In this document: piece by piece, positions 2,861 to 18,822 of the stretch | Numbering within the stretch: the stretch's first letter is position 1 | How the letters are laid out: the number at the start of each line of letters is the position of its first letter | DNA from: Denitrovibrio acetiphilus DSM 12809 | GTDB lineage: Bacteria > Chrysiogenota > Deferribacteres > Deferribacterales > Geovibrionaceae | Assembly: GCF_000025725.1 (NCBI RefSeq) | Contig: NC_013943.1 | Coordinates: 2,480,001 to 2,544,000, forward strand | Direction: 5' to 3' | DNA length: 64,000 nucleotides | Notes under the pieces: generated by a model | Seen by the model: the letters and a program-made list of their open reading frames with translations, nothing else | Databases searched by the model: none | What the model was told of the DNA's origin: nothing | Made by a program: the position numbers and the translations under genes

Positions 2861-5131
<2,271 letters not shown>

Positions 5132-5191
5132 CTATGAAATACAGTGCTAACCTTTAGCATCACGTAATTATAATGGCATTTCGTTTTCTAC

Positions 5192-5210
5192 ACTGTATAC
5201 AGTATACACA
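5192..5210. promoter_or_regulatory. Operator-like palindrome upstream of icd
   Basis: Half-sites ACTGTAT and ATACACA are separated by 5 bases (ACAGT). The site overlaps the -10 of the predicted icd promoter by two bases and covers the region around its start point, about 100 bases before the icd ATG. The same architecture recurs upstream of acnB (12273-12291) and fumA (17307-17325). Position and similarity are seen in the sequence; repressor binding is inferred. Confidence 0.6.
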
Positions 5211-5236
5211 TATACTTTCAACACACCATTTGTCAA
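5209..5236 (-). promoter_or_regulatory. Predicted sigma70 promoter of icd operon
   Basis: On the minus strand a perfect TTGACA (5236-5231) is followed after 16 bases by TATATG (5214-5209). The leader to the icd ATG would be about 110 bases. The palindrome at 5192-5210 lies on and just downstream of the -10, the layout expected for repression. Confidence 0.5.
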
Positions 5237-5239
5237 GCA

Positions 5240-5660
5240 TTATCAGGCCTGACAGTGGTAAAACAATATTTACTTTTTATTTCCTCAAGAGCCACAATCC
5301 TTTGCAGACAAGGATTATTTTTTATTGTTTTAGTGTAATATCAGCTACGCCTCAGCACTAAATCCGGCAAGCATAATATTGCATTATAACAACTATACAT
5401 TTTTAAAATACCGTTCAACCTTACCTCCATAACGCAAAAGCTTTACGAGCATATGTAAACCTAAACCGATAAACATCATTTTCATTTAAACATTTTATTT
5501 GTCTCTTTATGTATATAGGTTTAAAAACAGACTTACACTCCTGAACTTCATGACAGTAGAATGCATTATTATACATTATTCATAGATTTTCCAGTTTACG
5601 TTTAATTATATATTAAAATTATCTCATTCAGGCATTTCTCATTCAAAATTAGTGTTTCAT
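5240..5660. other. AT-rich intergenic DNA without a visible gene
   Basis: This is most of the long divergent gap between icd and the caspase operon. It is very AT-rich and has short ORFs only, without ribosome sites or family resemblance. I see no tRNA, riboswitch or mobile element remnant here. The only structured part of the gap is the candidate small RNA immediately to the right. Confidence 0.5.
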
Positions 5661-5667
5661 ATCGAAC

Positions 5668-5697
5668 AAAAAAAAATAATGTGTTTTCCACATTATT
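5668..5697 (-). terminator. Rho-independent terminator, minus strand
   Basis: A 9-bp perfect stem with a 5-base loop is followed by a T7 tract on the minus strand. No annotated leftward gene lies between it and the caspase gene start at 5901, so it implies a non-coding leftward transcript. On the plus strand the hairpin lacks a U-run. Confidence 0.6.
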
Positions 5698-5785
5698 CAT
5701 ATACAACTATTATAAACTAATAATTATTCAGACGTAACTTTCAGGCTGAACAAAGTCACGTTTGCTGCAAGTTCACAAATATATG
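5668..5785 (-). ncRNA. Candidate small RNA with intrinsic terminator
   Basis: On the minus strand a 10-bp hairpin (5761-5732, ACGTGACTTT with AAAGTTACGT, 10-base loop) is followed by a terminator hairpin (5697-5675, AATAATGTG with CACATTATT) and a run of seven further T residues (5674-5668). In the first hairpin the fifth pair is G-U on the minus strand but an A-C mismatch on the plus strand, which favours a minus-strand RNA. A weak promoter (TTTAAC, 18 bases, TATATT) would start a transcript of roughly 110-120 bases near 5785. No ORF is present. The 5' end is a guess. Confidence 0.35.
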
Positions 5786-5900
5786 TTTTTATTAAATATT
5801 AGTTAAATCACAAATGATACTGGTAATATTTACTAAATACTGAATTGATTTGCATCTTATGATAGTATACTATTATGATACTAAATGTGAAGGTTTGTCT

Positions 5901-7460
5901 ATGTTTCAAAAAACAGCTCCGGTATTTCTCTTCATATTCTATGCACTTTTCTTAACCACTCCATCCTCTTATGCGGACCAGCGTGCAATATCTTTCACAA
6001 AGGATGCTGCTAAAGAAGAAAAACGTATAGCAGTCCTTATAGGAAATTCGAACTACAACTCTGCCCCCCTCAAAAACCCTGTAAACGACACTAGATCATT
6101 ATCTTCAACCCTGCGCAGCCTTGGTTTCAAAGTACACGATTATTATGATCTGAGCAGAGACGATATAAAAAGAGTGAGCGGTCTACTCTCTGAGAAACAA
6201 AACTCAGGCGGCACAGCACTCTTCTACTACGCCGGACACGGCATACAGTCTGCAGGAAACAACTATATGATCCCAGTGAATGCAGATATTAAAACCGAAT
6301 CAGACCTTGAGTTTGAAGCGGTAAGCCTTGACATGGTTTTTGCAAAGATGGAACAGGCTGGAAACAGAGTTAATATTGTAATTCTTGACGCATGCCGGAA
6401 CAATCCGTTCTCACGCAGCTACCGAACACAGATACAAGGACTTGCAACAGTCAGCGCCCCCGCAGGAAGCTTTATTGCATATGCCACTTCACCAGGCAAG
6501 GTAGCGGCAGACGGAGAAGGAGATAACAGTATTTTTACCAGTTCACTAATAAATGTACTTGAAAAGACTCAGGGCATTCCCATTGAGCAGATATTCAAAT
6601 TTGTCCGGTCAGAAGTCAGACAGGCAACCGGAGGCGAACAAATCCCATGGACGTCTTCAAGTATGGAGGGGGATTTTTTCTTCACCCATTCAACAGTACC
6701 AAAAGTTAATATTCAGTTAGCTTCACCTGCACGCCCCCAGAAAGTCAGAACATCATCCAACCGCCTGAATTTTTTTACTGATAATTATACAGGAATAAAA
6801 CTCGCCAAAATTTCTGCAGGATGCTTCATGATGGGCAGTTCATCATACGAAAAAAACGTACAGGCTGATGAAATTCCGCTGCACAGGGTATGCCTTGGCG
6901 AGTTCTATATTGGAACACATGAAGTAACACAGGGGCAGTGGACAAAAGTTATGGGGATCAATCCCTCAGCTTTTCAGGACTGCGGAGCAGACTGTCCGGT
7001 TGAGAATATCTCGTGGAACGACACTCAGGCATTTATCACCAAACTTAATAAGATAACCGGTAAAAACTTCAGACTACCCACTGAGGCAGAGTGGGAGTTT
7101 GCCGCAAAAGAACGTGGACAGATGCCGACCACCCCGCAGTCAATTGAAAAACTTGCATGGTACAAAAACAATGCAGAGAATAAAACACACAAAACCGGTG
7201 GCAAAGCTCCAAATTCACTGGGACTTTACGATACACTAGGTAATGTTCAAGAGTGGTGCTCAGACAACTACGAATTCGGCTATTACAGTTTTTCACCCCT
7301 TAACAATCCTCAGGGGGCTGAAGCAAGCCCCAGAAAAGTTTTACGCGGAGGCTCATGGGTTGGAGACAACAGTAAAGTCAGACTGACCAACCGCAGAGCT
7401 ATTAATGCTGACGGAACAGGTCCATACATAGGTTTCAGGCTGGTCATGACCGATAATTAA
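5901..7460 (+). CDS. Secreted caspase-like (C14) protein with C-terminal SUMF1/FGE-type domain
   Basis: 519 aa. I use the ATG at 5901 because it directly begins a signal peptide (hydrophobic residues 7-20, likely cleavage after SSYA at 25); an in-frame ATG 17 codons upstream would bury it. Residues ~40-240 are a peptidase C14 p20 domain with the His in YYAGHG (H113) and Cys in LDACRNNPF (C165), so the dyad is intact. Residues ~300-519 are a formylglycine-generating/SUMF1-like fold (GCFMMGS, GTHEVTQGQW, RLPTEAEWEFAA, GNVQEWCSD, RGGSW, GFRLV). The C-terminal region lacks the paired cysteines of active FGE, so it is probably a binding domain. It heads an operon with three lipoproteins, suggesting a periplasmic/envelope role. 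Confidence 0.88.
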   Translation: MFQKTAPVFLFIFYALFLTTPSSYADQRAISFTKDAAKEEKRIAVLIGNSNYNSAPLKNPVNDTRSLSSTLRSLGFKVHDYYDLSRDDIKRVSGLLSEKQNSGGTALFYYAGHGIQSAGNNYMIPVNADIKTESDLEFEAVSLDMVFAKMEQAGNRVNIVILDACRNNPFSRSYRTQIQGLATVSAPAGSFIAYATSPGKVAADGEGDNSIFTSSLINVLEKTQGIPIEQIFKFVRSEVRQATGGEQIPWTSSSMEGDFFFTHSTVPKVNIQLASPARPQKVRTSSNRLNFFTDNYTGIKLAKISAGCFMMGSSSYEKNVQADEIPLHRVCLGEFYIGTHEVTQGQWTKVMGINPSAFQDCGADCPVENISWNDTQAFITKLNKITGKNFRLPTEAEWEFAAKERGQMPTTPQSIEKLAWYKNNAENKTHKTGGKAPNSLGLYDTLGNVQEWCSDNYEFGYYSFSPLNNPQGAEASPRKVLRGGSWVGDNSKVRLTNRRAINADGTGPYIGFRLVMTDN

Positions 7461-7497
7461 ATTTCATGTCTATTTTTATAATAAGGAGGGAACTATT

Positions 7498-7917
7498 TTG
7501 AAAAAATTAATTATGCTATTAGCTTTTGCGGTATTCATCATCTCAGGATGTGCCTCTACAAACAAAAGACCTTTTGTGGAAATCACAGATATTCCACAGG
7601 GGAGAGGCGTGGTTTACATATACATGCCACAAAAAAAGAATCTGCTTCAAACAGCAGAGGTCAGAGTCGATAATTCCGAAGCCATAGGTACATATGTAGG
7701 CAATATACTCAAGGGCACTTATATACCTTATATCGCACCTCTCGGCGAGAACCTGTTCAAAATAGGAAATAAGGCAATCAGCCTGAACGTTATAGAAAAT
7801 GAAGCAAGCTTTATAAAGATTGAGTCATATAAAGTCTTCTTCAAAATGAACATTAAGCTGGCAGAAATAGACCCGTCTGCCGGATTTGTGCACATAAGAA
7901 CAACTCAGCAGAGATAA
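7498..7917 (+). CDS. DUF2846-like lipoprotein
   Basis: 139 aa with a TTG start set by a strong AAGGAGGG site seven bases upstream. The signal peptide ends in the lipobox ISGC (Cys about residue 18), so the mature protein should be lipid-anchored. After it comes a beta-rich domain with GRGVVYIYMPQ near residue 40, resembling the DUF2846 family of small periplasmic proteins. That family has no known function. The gene lies 37 bases after the caspase/SUMF1 gene and 16 before the next small lipoprotein, so co-transcription is likely. Confidence 0.75.
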   Translation: MKKLIMLLAFAVFIISGCASTNKRPFVEITDIPQGRGVVYIYMPQKKNLLQTAEVRVDNSEAIGTYVGNILKGTYIPYIAPLGENLFKIGNKAISLNVIENEASFIKIESYKVFFKMNIKLAEIDPSAGFVHIRTTQQR

Positions 7918-7933
7918 ATTAGGAGTAAAAACT

Positions 7934-8059
7934 ATGAAAAGATTACTGTTGCTGGCCATAGCACTGACAATTCTGGCCGTGGGGTGCGGCCCTGTAAAGC
8001 AGACTGTCCCGACAAGGACAACAATAACCAAATACACTGTAGATACAGACTGTAAATAG
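7934..8059 (+). CDS. 41-aa lipoprotein
   Basis: A very short gene of 41 codons. The ATG follows TTAGGAG. The protein has a lysine/arginine N-terminus, a hydrophobic stretch and lipobox LAVGC (Cys at residue 18), then about 23 polar residues rich in Thr ending TDCK. It resembles small entericidin-like lipoproteins only in layout. It lies between two other lipoprotein genes with 15-16-base gaps and so belongs to the caspase operon. Function unknown. Confidence 0.65.
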   Translation: MKRLLLLAIALTILAVGCGPVKQTVPTRTTITKYTVDTDCK

Positions 8060-8073
8060 GTCGGGAGAAAATT

Positions 8074-8826
8074 ATGAAAAAAATACTAATTCTAATTACA
8101 ATTGTTTCTGCTATCTTTATAGCGGGATGTGCACCTTCTGCCGTCAACTATACAAATATCAGCTCAATGGATCTGCCGGTAAAAAAATACCCTTCAAGAG
8201 AGAATCTTTCCGATCTCTCACTCGCTATAGCAAAACCTGAGGTCACAATTTCTTTCAAAGCATCAAACTCGCTGAAACTCGCTCTGCGAAAAAGAATAGC
8301 GCAGGATGCATACATTCTCGCCTGTCACCTAACCCAAGAGATGAGAAAGATACTAGTAGCAAAAGGGTTTACCATAACAGATACATTTGACAACCTTAAT
8401 GCAATGACATTTACCCAGAAACGGAACACCAGTGCGCTTTTCACGGCTTTCATCAGTATCGAAATAAATGAAGAAACACTGTCAGACCTGGTGGACTATG
8501 TGCCACAACTTGCTCACGGCGTTATCAGTTCAAAAGCAAAACTTCAGATTGCAACCATTGAGCCATTGTCAGGTGAGATTGTCTGGCTAAAAAATGTTCC
8601 TGTACAAGACAGCGACATCCAACTCCAGTATCCCTACTGGGCAAGCATGAATGCGTCTGAAACACAGATACCTGTGGAACTTTCCGGAACAGTTAACTCT
8701 ATTGATGATATTTTCAAACAGACAAACGAAAAGATAACTCAGGCAGTAGACTCATTTGTAAGCGTTGATGAATTCATGTTTCTCAACACTGATATTAAAA
8801 AACTCAAAAAGATCAAACGCTATTAG
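8074..8826 (+). CDS. HpaA/NLBH-like lipoprotein
   Basis: 250 aa with signal peptide and lipobox IAGC (Cys about residue 19). From residue ~95 it resembles the neuraminyllactose-binding hemagglutinin family (HpaA of Helicobacter). Shared features are a GFTITDTFDNL block followed by MTFTQKR, an IEPLSGEIVW block near residue 170, and a lysine-rich C-terminal helix. Family assignment is from remembered motif order, not a search. It is the last gene of the caspase/lipoprotein operon, preceded by GGGAG, and is followed by hairpins at 8840-8938. A surface or periplasmic-facing lipoprotein is likely; adhesion activity should not be assumed. Confidence 0.65.
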   Translation: MKKILILITIVSAIFIAGCAPSAVNYTNISSMDLPVKKYPSRENLSDLSLAIAKPEVTISFKASNSLKLALRKRIAQDAYILACHLTQEMRKILVAKGFTITDTFDNLNAMTFTQKRNTSALFTAFISIEINEETLSDLVDYVPQLAHGVISSKAKLQIATIEPLSGEIVWLKNVPVQDSDIQLQYPYWASMNASETQIPVELSGTVNSIDDIFKQTNEKITQAVDSFVSVDEFMFLNTDIKKLKKIKRY

Positions 8827-8911
8827 GCTAACTGCAAAAAAATCAGATCTGAAAAAGCTTCGTTCTGCCTGTTTTATACAGCTAAAGCTTCCGATTCAGA
8901 TTTCAACCATA

Positions 8912-8938
8912 AGGCTGCTCTTTTTTTCAGGGCAGCCT
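8912..8938 (+). terminator. Hairpin downstream of lipoprotein operon
   Basis: AGGCTGCTC pairs with GGGCAGCCT (one G-U) around a T-rich 9-base loop. It lies between the rightward lipoprotein operon and the leftward hemerythrin-like gene. An imperfect longer hairpin (8840-8900) precedes it. The following bases (GTTTCAG) are only weakly U-rich, so efficiency is uncertain. Confidence 0.45.
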
Positions 8939-8957
8939 GTTTCAGTTATGCATAAAA

Positions 8958-9362
8958 TTATACGGAACTAAGCCTTTCATAGAGCGGATAAAGCTGTATC
9001 TCCTCTTTCCTTATGCGCATTCTCAGGCTGGAGATAATCCTTCCCAGCTCTTTAGCGTATTCCATATCTATCTCGGCAGTCCCTGCTCTGTTTATAAAAT
9101 CTATGACAGTTGCAGAAAGACCTTTCATCTCAGAAGAAAACTCATCAACGATTTTAGATGAATAAGCTTCACCTGCGGACAGTTTTTTAAGCTCAGGGTA
9201 AAGCCTGCTGTCCTCTTTGCGCAGATGTTCGGTCAGGAGCATTTTACCTTCCATCAGCTTACTGCGCCCGGCATCTGTTGCTAACCCAAGCTTCTGAGCA
9301 TCCAGCATTATATTCAGTAGTTTTTCGTGATCATTTTTCAGCTCTTTTACCAAATCACTCAT
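8958..9362 (-). CDS. Hemerythrin-like (HHE) protein with reduced ligand set
   Basis: 134 aa from an ATG preceded by AGAGGTG; a longer in-frame reading would start 36 codons upstream inside the acnB terminator and is rejected. The four-helix HHE pattern is recognisable: NDHEKL near residue 11, LTEHLRKEDSRLYPEL near 43-58 and RIRKEEIQLYPLYE near 120. Only two histidines (about 12 and 46) exist in the whole protein; the last helix has Arg where HHE proteins carry His. A classical diiron, oxygen-binding site needs about five, so function may be structural or regulatory. It is a single gene between acnB and the lipoprotein operon. Confidence 0.7.
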   Translation of the reverse strand: MSDLVKELKNDHEKLLNIMLDAQKLGLATDAGRSKLMEGKMLLTEHLRKEDSRLYPELKKLSAGEAYSSKIVDEFSSEMKGLSATVIDFINRAGTAEIDMEYAKELGRIISSLRMRIRKEEIQLYPLYERLSSV

Positions 9363-9445
9363 TCGAACACCTCTGTTATCTATTTTAAATAGGGTACACC
9401 GGGTGCCCTGCAAGACTGCTTGACCTGCATCAATTACACGACAAA

Positions 9446-9477
9446 AAAAGGGCTGAACCTTTCGGAACAACCCTTTT
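9446..9477 (-). terminator. Intrinsic terminator of acnB
   Basis: Reading leftward from the acnB stop, AAAAGGGTTG pairs with CAGCCCTTTT (10 bp, one G-U), capped by an inner CC-GAAA-GG and followed by more T residues. It is near-symmetric, so it could also act on rightward transcripts. Confidence 0.8.
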
Positions 9478-9595
9478 ATATTTCATCTGTTGTCATTGCT
9501 AAGCCCTGAAACACTTGTAGCAATAGCCCCTTAACCAGAGACTGCCTCTTCGAATCAGGCTTTCAAGCAGTGACGTTTTTTCTCTTTATACTCGA

Positions 9596-15695: not shown

Positions 15696-17087
15696 CTAGC
15701 TTTTCGACCCGGTCATATCCTCAGGAACAACATACTTATCAAACTCAGCTTCTGTCAGATAGCCAAGCTTAACCGCGGTCTCCCTGAGGGTAGAGTTTTC
15801 TGCAAATGCTGTTTTTGCTATCTTTGCCGCCTTGTCATATCCTATGTGAGGATTCAGTGCGGTTACAAGCATGAGCGAATTCCTAAGATAGTGGTCTATC
15901 TGTTCGCGGTTTGGTTTTATCCCGACAGCACAGTTTTCACGGAAAGAATCCATTGCATCACCAAGAAGTTTTGCTGATTGCAGGAAATTATATATTATCA
16001 CAGGTTTAAAAACATTCAGTTCAAAGTTCCCCTGACTCGCTGCAAAACCTATTGCCGCATCGTTCCCAAAAACCTGACAAGCAACCATTGTTACAGCCTC
16101 TGACTGTGTGGGATTAACCTTCCCCGGCATAATGGAGCTGCCCGGCTCATTGGCAGGTATCTCCAGCTCGCCTATCCCGCATCTGGGACCGGAGGCAAGC
16201 CAGCGAATGTCATTAGCTATTTTCATCATATTAGCTGCGAGAGCTTTCAACGCTCCGGACGCAAATGTAAGTGCATCATGTGATGTCAGAGATTGAAATT
16301 TATTCCCTGCTGACTGAAAACGCTTACCTGTGAACCTCGTGACCTCTTCTGACACCATGACAGACAATTTCGGGTGAGCGTTCAACCCTGTACCGACGGC
16401 TGTCCCCCCTATGGCAAGCTCGCGCACATGCTCAAGAGATTCTCTGATCTGCCGTATGTTTGTCTCAAGCATTGCCACATAACCGGAAAATTCCTGTCCG
16501 AGCGTAAGCGGTGTAGCGTCCTGAAGGTGAGTACGCCCTATTTTAACAATGCTGTTAAACTCTTCCATCTTACTATGGAGAACATCCTTAAGGCTTTCAA
16601 TCGACGGCACAAGCTCATCCTCAACAACCGTGACAGCAGCAATGTGCATAGCCGTAGGGAAAGTATCGTTAGAGCTTTGCGACATATTCACATGGTCATT
16701 CGGATGTATCTCTTTATCTTCACGAAAGTTTTTACCCAATATCTCCGTAGCTCTGCTGGCTATCACCTCATTCATATTCATATTTGTCTGCGTTCCGCTC
16801 CCTGTCTGCCATACGGCGAGGGGGAACTGATCTGCAAGCTTATTCTTAAGTATCTCATCACAAGCTTTTATAATGGCATTTGCTTTCTCATCATGAAGTT
16901 TACCCAGCTTATTATTAACCACTGCCACAGAGCGCTTAAGCACTGCAAATGCATGTATGAGACTCACAGGCATCTTCTCCCAGCCTATTTTGAAGTTCTG
17001 AAGGCTTCGCTGTGTCTGAGCAGCCCAGTAAGCATCCTCCGGAACCTGAATCTCGCCCATAGTATCCTTTTCGATTCTGAATTTCAT
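15696..17087 (-). CDS. fumC: Fumarate hydratase class II
   Basis: 463 aa, normal for the iron-independent, oxygen-stable class II fumarase tetramer that hydrates fumarate to malate. The family signature [15 protein letters not shown] is near residue 317. The substrate-binding [13 protein letters not shown] is near residue 98, and the catalytic His-containing block [20 protein letters not shown] is near residue 185. A GGAGAA site precedes the ATG. It is divergent from the class I pair fumAB, so the 294-base spacer with the TCA palindrome may serve both. It ends against palindromic repeats shared with SulP. Confidence 0.97.
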
Positions 17088-17306
17088 AATCAGCTTCTCC
17101 TATTCGATTATTACAGAAGGCGAGCAGCACAAGGCTTCACCCCTGTAACGATTTTATAACTTTCAAAATTATATTACATATTCAATTCAACAGACTAATC
17201 TTAATGTTATCAGCCATATCAAAATTATACCCCCTTAGCCTTTTTATGCCATACAAATTTATACTTTGTTAATTTTAAACCACCGTTCAACTCTTACTTG
17301 TATTTT

Positions 17307-17325
17307 TCTGTATATTGTATACAAT
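17307..17325. promoter_or_regulatory. Operator-like palindrome upstream of fumAB
   Basis: TCTGTAT and ATACAAT are separated by ATTGT; the right part is also a perfect 12-bp palindrome, ATTGTATACAAT. It lies 57 bases upstream of the fumA ATG and about 220 bases upstream of divergent fumC. It matches sites at icd and acnB. A possible -10 TATAAT (17355-17360) lies downstream without a convincing -35. Confidence 0.6.
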
Positions 17326-17381
17326 CATATGGTTAAGAATAAATATATTCAGAATATAATAACCTTATATGCGAGGTGGCT

Positions 17382-18248
17382 ATGGAACTCAAAGATGCAA
17401 TGCTTGAGCTGATCCGCAGAGCAACCACAGACCTTTCACCGGATGTGGAGAATGCGATTCAGCAGGCGTACGACAGAGAGGACGAAGGGACACCGGCAAA
17501 AAGCGTTTTCGGAACCATCCGTGAAAATATCGCACTTGCCAGAGAAGCTTCAACTCCTATTTGTCAGGACACAGGTTCTGTCATAATCTACATTGACTTT
17601 CCTGTAGGCGAACCGGAAACCAAATATAAAGAAGCGGCTGAATGGGCTGCTGCTGAGGCTACAAAGCTCCAGTATCTCCGCCCTAACGCTGTTGACCCTA
17701 TCACAGGCAAGAATTCCGGCAATAACGTTGGAACAAATGCCCCTTACCTCCACTTTCACCAATGGGATAAGGACGAAACCAGAGTTAGGCTCATGCTTAA
17801 AGGCGGCGGCTCTGAAAATGTGGGCGCTCAATACAAGCTCCCGGACTCTGTTCTTCACGCCGGACGTGACCTGAAAGGTGTTAAGAAAGTTGTGATCGAT
17901 GCCGTACAAAAAGCACAGGGACAAGGCTGCGCACCAGGCGTTGTTGGTATAGGAATCGGCGGAGACAGAGTAACATCCTACGCACTTTCCAAAGAGCAGT
18001 TCTTCCGTAAACTCGGTGAGAAAAGCACAAACCCTGACCTTGCCAAACTTGAAGAGGAACTCTACGAAGACCTTAATAAACTCGGCATCGGACCAATGGG
18101 ATTCGGCGGAAAAACTACCTGCCTTGGCGTTTTCGCAGGGGTTCAGCACAGACACCCGGCTACATTCTATGTAGCAATTTCATATACCTGCTGGGCATAC
18201 AGAAGAAAGCAAATGACAATCAAAGGAAGTGAGGTGACATATGATTAA
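17382..18248 (+). CDS. Fumarate hydratase class I, alpha subunit
   Basis: 288 aa N-terminal-type subunit of the heterodimeric [4Fe-4S] fumarase (tartrate/fumarate dehydratase family). Cluster cysteines are in PICQDTGS (about residue 60), GQGCAPGVVGIGIGGD (about 187) and TTCLGVF (about 247). I prefer the ATG at 17382, five bases after GAGGTG; a GTG two codons earlier overlaps that site. The stop overlaps the start of the beta-subunit gene, giving translational coupling. The enzyme is oxygen-labile, in keeping with an anaerobe, and duplicates the FumC activity encoded next door. Confidence 0.93.
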   Translation: MELKDAMLELIRRATTDLSPDVENAIQQAYDREDEGTPAKSVFGTIRENIALAREASTPICQDTGSVIIYIDFPVGEPETKYKEAAEWAAAEATKLQYLRPNAVDPITGKNSGNNVGTNAPYLHFHQWDKDETRVRLMLKGGGSENVGAQYKLPDSVLHAGRDLKGVKKVVIDAVQKAQGQGCAPGVVGIGIGGDRVTSYALSKEQFFRKLGEKSTNPDLAKLEEELYEDLNKLGIGPMGFGGKTTCLGVFAGVQHRHPATFYVAISYTCWAYRRKQMTIKGSEVTYD

Positions 18249-18822
18249 GCTCACTACACCTATCAGTGAAGAGAAAGCACGTTCACTTAAGGTGGGCGAC
18301 GAGGTTCTCCTTACAGGAACCATCGTAACAGCAAGAGATGCTGCACATAAACTGATGATAGAAGAAAGACCGGATTTTATCCGTGAACACCTGAAAGACG
18401 GTGTAATATACCACTGCGGCCCTGTTGTCAAACAGGCGGAAAACGGTGAATACAGCTTTGTAGCAGCAGGCCCGACCACCTCTTCCCGTGAAGAACCCTA
18501 TCAGGCAGCAGTCTGCGAGGAATACTCTGTACGTGCCGTTATCGGCAAAGGCGGTATGGGACCAAAAACAGCAGAAGGGCTTAAAAAAGTCGGCGCAGTT
18601 TACCTGCATGCTGTTGGCGGCGCAGGATCGCTTATTGGTAAAATGGTTAAAAAAGTTCATACAGTATACAAGCTTGAAGAATTCGGGACACCGGAAGCCT
18701 TCTGGGTTTGTGAGGTTGAAGATTTCCCTTGCGTTGTTACCATGGACAGCCACGGAGGCTCCCTGCATAAAGATATTGCAGCAGCCTCACAGAAAGTTGC
18801 CGACGGACTCATCGGTCAGTAG
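18241..18822 (+). CDS. Fumarate hydratase class I, beta subunit
   Basis: 193 aa, matching the swivelling C-terminal domain (FumA C-terminus/TtdB-like) of class I fumarases. Family features include GDEVLLTGTIVTARDAAHK near residue 20 and GPTTSSRE near residue 79, where the substrate carboxylate is bound, and GKGGMGPKT near 101. It overlaps the alpha-subunit gene by 8 bases and would form the heterodimer with it. The gene ends before two short direct repeats and a strong bidirectional terminator. Confidence 0.93.
   Translation: MIKLTTPISEEKARSLKVGDEVLLTGTIVTARDAAHKLMIEERPDFIREHLKDGVIYHCGPVVKQAENGEYSFVAAGPTTSSREEPYQAAVCEEYSVRAVIGKGGMGPKTAEGLKKVGAVYLHAVGGAGSLIGKMVKKVHTVYKLEEFGTPEAFWVCEVEDFPCVVTMDSHGGSLHKDIAAASQKVADGLIGQ

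Follow-up and report, generated by a model that had tools for sequence, protein, structure and literature searches.

Four co-directional genes of Denitrovibrio acetiphilus DSM 12809 encode a putatively exported caspase-like protease and three lipoproteins. Their arrangement raises the question of whether the protease and the lipoproteins belong to one envelope system, in which the former processes the latter, or whether the lipoproteins constitute a unit of their own. We analyzed the locus in the window, a stretch of 64,000 nucleotides from a genome that consists of a single contig of 3,222,077 bases. All coordinates of the locus given below are window positions.

Layout of the locus and its chromosomal slot

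The four genes lie on the + strand between the start of the first at 5901 and the end of the last at 8826, and they are separated by gaps of 37, 16 and 14 bp; the positions, strands and spacing of the original prediction proved exact. The features of the locus are as follows.

5901..7460, + strand: caspase-SUMF1 gene, with a C14 domain at aa 41-259 and a SUMF1/FGE-fold domain at aa 303-515
7498..7917, + strand: LP1 gene, 139-aa lipoprotein, lipobox C18
7934..8059, + strand: LP2 gene, 41-aa microlipoprotein, lipobox C18, mature part of 24 aa
8074..8826, + strand: LP3 gene, 250-aa lipoprotein, lipobox C19
8912..8938, + strand: terminator-like hairpin with a 10-pair stem and a T-run in the loop, separating LP3 from a convergent hemerythrin-domain gene

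On the coding strand, from the four genes to the next gene, the hairpin at 8912-8938 is the sole terminator-like element. Because it comes after LP3, it is plausible that the caspase gene and LP1-LP2-LP3 are read as one transcription unit. Structured RNA was sought in the region, and none was found.

The caspase gene and the trio occupy the gap between idh and acnB (5093-9595). Seven relatives from the same family retain the sucC-mdh-idh-acnB neighbourhood (in two of them, idh was not found there), and none of the seven carries the caspase or the lipoproteins at this place. Between idh and acnB, G003 and G011 have about 0.6-0.8 kb, and G005 has 1.9 kb, which includes a Fic-type gene. The distance is 7 kb in two further genomes: G001, where response-regulator genes and pentapeptide-repeat-like lipoprotein genes fill it, and G002, where the genes are different ones (the genes of these cargoes were named by eye). 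Since the slot is near-empty or filled with unrelated cargo in these relatives, the caspase-trio locus is accessory, and the cargo between idh and acnB varies across the family. In the TCA-cycle cluster of the window, a class II fumarase was also seen by eye beside a split class I fumarase of two subunits (15696-18822).

The caspase-SUMF1 protein

The first gene had been described as encoding a C14 protease with a signal peptide and intact His and Cys residues, fused to a SUMF1-type domain. Both domains are certain by Pfam (C14, E 6e-45, 154 bits versus a cut-off of 21.4; SUMF1/FGE-sulfatase, E 4e-41, 142 bits), and the catalytic dyad H113/C165 is present and aligns with that of the MALT1 paracaspase, the best PDB match of the protease part. 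The Sec signal peptide, FLFIFYALFLTTPSSYA followed by DQ, with a cut after SYA (aa 25), was read from the sequence and is putative. D63 and D163 align with acidic residues of MALT1, which we take, from MALT1 structures, to line the basic-P1 pocket and to bind the P1 arginine; from this alignment we infer an Arg/Lys-directed, paracaspase-like protease. The protein shares with MALT1 and the bacterial orthocaspases the C14 fold, the AGHG and D-x-C-R dyad motifs and the equivalent acidic residues, whereas it differs from them in its putative export and in carrying SUMF1 instead of death/Ig domains. A known defence system was considered and rejected, PADLOC giving a generic caspase match only. A second secreted caspase-like protein of 451 aa, with YYAGHG and DSCFSG motifs, is encoded in the same genome (L002:1498-2853); flagellar genes of the fliP-like kind, as named by eye, lie upstream of it.

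That caspase-SUMF1 fusions are known in bacteria had been rightly stated: of 671 prokaryotic metacaspases, 33 carry an FGE-sulfatase domain, N-terminal helices, possibly signal peptides, are frequent among these proteins, and Deferribacteres are one of the metacaspase-rich phyla (PMC3501461). The fusions reported there have the identical two domains in the identical order, so the architecture is not new; the difference lies in the lipoprotein neighbours. The closest full-length homologs that we found are those of genome G073, and no such lipoproteins are encoded near them. This genome gave more than 10 caspase-domain matches, several of them SUMF1-fused and many secreted, in varied neighbourhoods (L005, L086, L087, L092, L093). 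In a family relative, three SUMF1-domain genes stand in tandem (G006:C1:1774989-1778015).

What the SUMF1 domain does was judged from its cysteines and its nearest structures. Its strong Pfam match to the FGE-sulfatase family would fit a formylglycine-type modification of a partner protein, but in alignment with 6MUJ and 2Q17 both FGE copper-binding cysteines are replaced, the segment RGGSWVGDNS...KVR standing where FGE has RGGSYLCHDSYCNRYR. With both catalytic cysteines missing, a modifying enzyme is very improbable, and we read the domain as a non-catalytic binding module. Its best PDB match is the Treponema variable protein TvpA (2y3c), and because TvpA is a DGR variable protein, diversification was tested. 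The domain is C-terminal, as in DGR targets, and could on that account be a hypervariable ligand-binding domain of the TvpA kind; however, the whole genome has no reverse transcriptase (PF00078), and a second copy of the 3' end of the gene, which would be the template, was not found. These two results refute the DGR reading here, and we give it practically no credence. The domain also failed to reach the NCBIfam equivalog cut-off for PorK/GldK of the T9SS (89.8 bits versus 350). According to the PDB matches, it shares the SUMF1/C-type-lectin-like fold with the non-FGE proteins TvpA, PvdO, PorK/GldK and SUMF2, yet it is neither DGR-diversified like TvpA nor a T9SS ring protein like PorK/GldK.

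The three lipoproteins and the HpaA superfamily

The lipoboxes, identified by eye, are IISGC in LP1, LAVGC in LP2 and FIAGC in LP3. The three genes recur together in UBA1873, a Deferribacterales MAG, at 50% (LP1), 48% (LP2) and 53% (LP3) identity, with the same order and strand and with short gaps; there, the trio is divergent from an adjoining nqrA-F-like cluster and has no caspase next to it. Profile searches with LP1 and LP3 yielded no convincing full-length score in the other 49 Deferribacterota genomes, and a contig scan by exact peptide patterns, a method able to find close relatives only, matched UBA1873 alone. The trio is held by two genomes, this one and UBA1873, which amounts to one independent further occurrence, and, of the species searched, only this one showed a caspase gene ahead of the trio. 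A plasmid or virus origin was rejected, for LP3 relatives are absent from plasmids and viral contigs and LP1 relatives are absent from viral contigs. Of the proposed four-gene operon, then, co-conservation holds for LP1-LP2-LP3 and fails for the caspase, which is missing beside the UBA1873 trio and whose G073 homologs come without the lipoproteins. Caspase and trio are thus separable. The real unit is probably a three-lipoprotein module, with the caspase as a lineage-specific partner or neighbour that is probably co-transcribed.

The start of LP1 at the TTG codon 7498 is preceded by a strong Shine-Dalgarno sequence, AAGGAGGG, and is supported by the UBA1873 homolog, which aligns from the identical point. 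LP1 had been called DUF2846-like; this survives as a weak likeness to PF11008, since LP1 scores 13.7 bits and its UBA1873 homolog 16.6 bits, both below the cut-off of 34.3. The protein is predicted to form a seven-stranded Ig-like beta-sandwich, and a fold search with it returned generic beta-sandwich matches only, at E values no better than 3e-3 and with no specific relative. The 41-aa frame proposed as a lipoprotein gene, LP2, is real, for UBA1873 encodes a 40-aa lipoprotein at the equivalent place with the same C-terminal TDCK. LP2 resembles HP0135, a small Helicobacter outer-membrane lipoprotein of 44 aa with homologs reported only in Helicobacter (PMC11768039), in being a microlipoprotein with a conserved C-terminal tail; a sequence relation between the two was not detected, and the tail of LP2, unlike that of HP0135, ends in Cys-Lys.

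LP3 had been termed HpaA-like. Neither LP3 nor its UBA1873 homolog has a Pfam match or reaches the PF05211 cut-off, and the genome itself has 0 PF05211 matches. A profile of these two sequences (A1) nevertheless finds L037 (E 9e-10), a protein encoded in a genome from a different phylum, and a single BLASTP comparison of LP3 with L037 gave E 1e-9. L037 itself clears the PF05211 cut-off with 51 bits, and it matches HpaA (8T8D, E 2e-6) and, less strongly, HP0492; LP3 is thus homologous, via L037, to a bona fide PF05211 member. In HHalign, A1 compared with L037 and two Deferribacterales relatives gave 94%. When L037 was added to the LP3 profile, 8T8D was the one PDB match, a result that is not independent because L037 contributes its own HpaA similarity. 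The Foldseek ranking of the LP3 model (pLDDT 51) is independent of L037: its top 7 of 350,542 chains are all HpaA, HP0410 or HP0492 (E 3e-6 to 8e-4; query TM 0.36-0.45). Intermediate sequence, profile comparison and fold search with a low-confidence model all point to LP3 as a remote HpaA-superfamily homolog that is not a formal PF05211 member, so that the earlier label is right as to remote kinship and not as to Pfam family.

HpaA/NLBH (PF05211; 8T8D, 3BGH, 2I9I) and LP3 are alike as lipoproteins of about 250 aa that are remotely homologous via L037, and the Foldseek ranking of the LP3 model, with its low pLDDT, suggests a common fold class. LP3 differs in falling below Pfam detection, in its Deferribacterota origin, in a helix insertion with a conserved Cys and in traveling with LP1 and LP2. 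A search for the HpaA family in the phylum of L037 matched 0 of 135 other genomes and only G347, the genome of L037 itself; with none of the 135 matching, this phylum is not the Helicobacter phylum. G015 and G022, two genomes of another Deferribacterales family, have HpaA-superfamily lipoprotein genes directly after a lipoprotein phytase gene (L052:1291-2100, L053:1267-2061), with products that score just below the Pfam cut-off, and genome G075 encodes an HpaA-like lipoprotein without a Pfam family (L095:1282-2037; A4 profile, E 8e-10).

A candidate lipoprotein complex and its possible link to the caspase

In E. coli, the +2 residue of a lipoprotein sets its sorting to the inner or the outer membrane. 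The +2 residues of LP1, LP2 and LP3 are A, G and A, which by this rule predict outer-membrane sorting of all three. Besides the lipobox cysteine, LP1 has none, LP2 has C40 in its TDCK tail and LP3 has C84. Both species keep C84, which sits in a stretch inserted into the first long helix and missing from L037 and HpaA. The pattern in the two species suggests a disulfide between LP2 C40 and LP3 C84. The three proteins would be exported, lipidated and directed to the outer membrane by their +2 residues. There, LP3 would form the body of a complex facing either the periplasm or the surface, LP2, with its 24 residues, would serve as a lipid-anchored staple bonded through its C-terminal cysteine to Cys84 of LP3, and LP1 would be the beta-sandwich partner. 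The caspase would act in the periplasm, its protease part cutting after Arg or Lys and its SUMF1-fold domain binding without catalysis; it would be expressed together with the trio without being an obligatory part of it.

Two other accounts of the link between the caspase and the trio were weighed against this. The original prediction had the secreted caspase cleaving or otherwise regulating the downstream lipoproteins. One probable transcription unit, a 37-bp gap free of a terminator, the intact dyad and a putative signal peptide that would bring the protease into the compartment of the lipoproteins are all in keeping with such a protease-substrate system. However, the trio of UBA1873 has no protease beside it, which argues that the trio does not generally need one, secreted caspase-SUMF1 homologs elsewhere lack such lipoproteins, and a conserved cleavage feature was not identified. 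Processing of surface lipoproteins by the caspase is therefore possible but unsupported, and we regard it as improbable. Alternatively, an accessory slot may have gathered the caspase gene and the trio independently, the two sharing a transcript and having no functional link. The variability of the slot in close relatives, with its unrelated cargo, and the occurrence of caspase and trio apart from each other elsewhere favor this account, while the 37-bp spacing, the strong Shine-Dalgarno sequence of LP1 and the lack of a terminator between the genes suggest an organized operon. Chance neighbourhood is accordingly an unlikely explanation, though one to be taken more seriously than proteolysis of the trio.

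Taken together, we lean toward a conserved LP1-LP2-LP3 envelope module that, in this lineage, has the caspase-SUMF1 gene at its head and sits in the variable idh-acnB slot, a reading to which we give about even weight for and against. The fuller proposal is that free-living non-Helicobacteraceae possess a three-lipoprotein outer-membrane complex not described before, with LP2 disulfide-stapled to LP3 and, in one lineage, under the control of a periplasmic paracaspase; we put it forward as speculative and rather doubtful.

Denitrovibrio is an anaerobe, with an oil-recovery model column as its source. HpaA, in turn, is a vaccine-candidate adhesin, and a 2024 structure paper (PMC10936181) assigns its family to Helicobacteraceae exclusively and gives it a part in host adhesion. 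HpaA homologs in Denitrovibrio and in other genomes outside the Helicobacter phylum imply a role that is older and does not depend on a host, and LP3-type homologs, being non-pathogen models with defined partner lipoproteins, would offer a way to find it.
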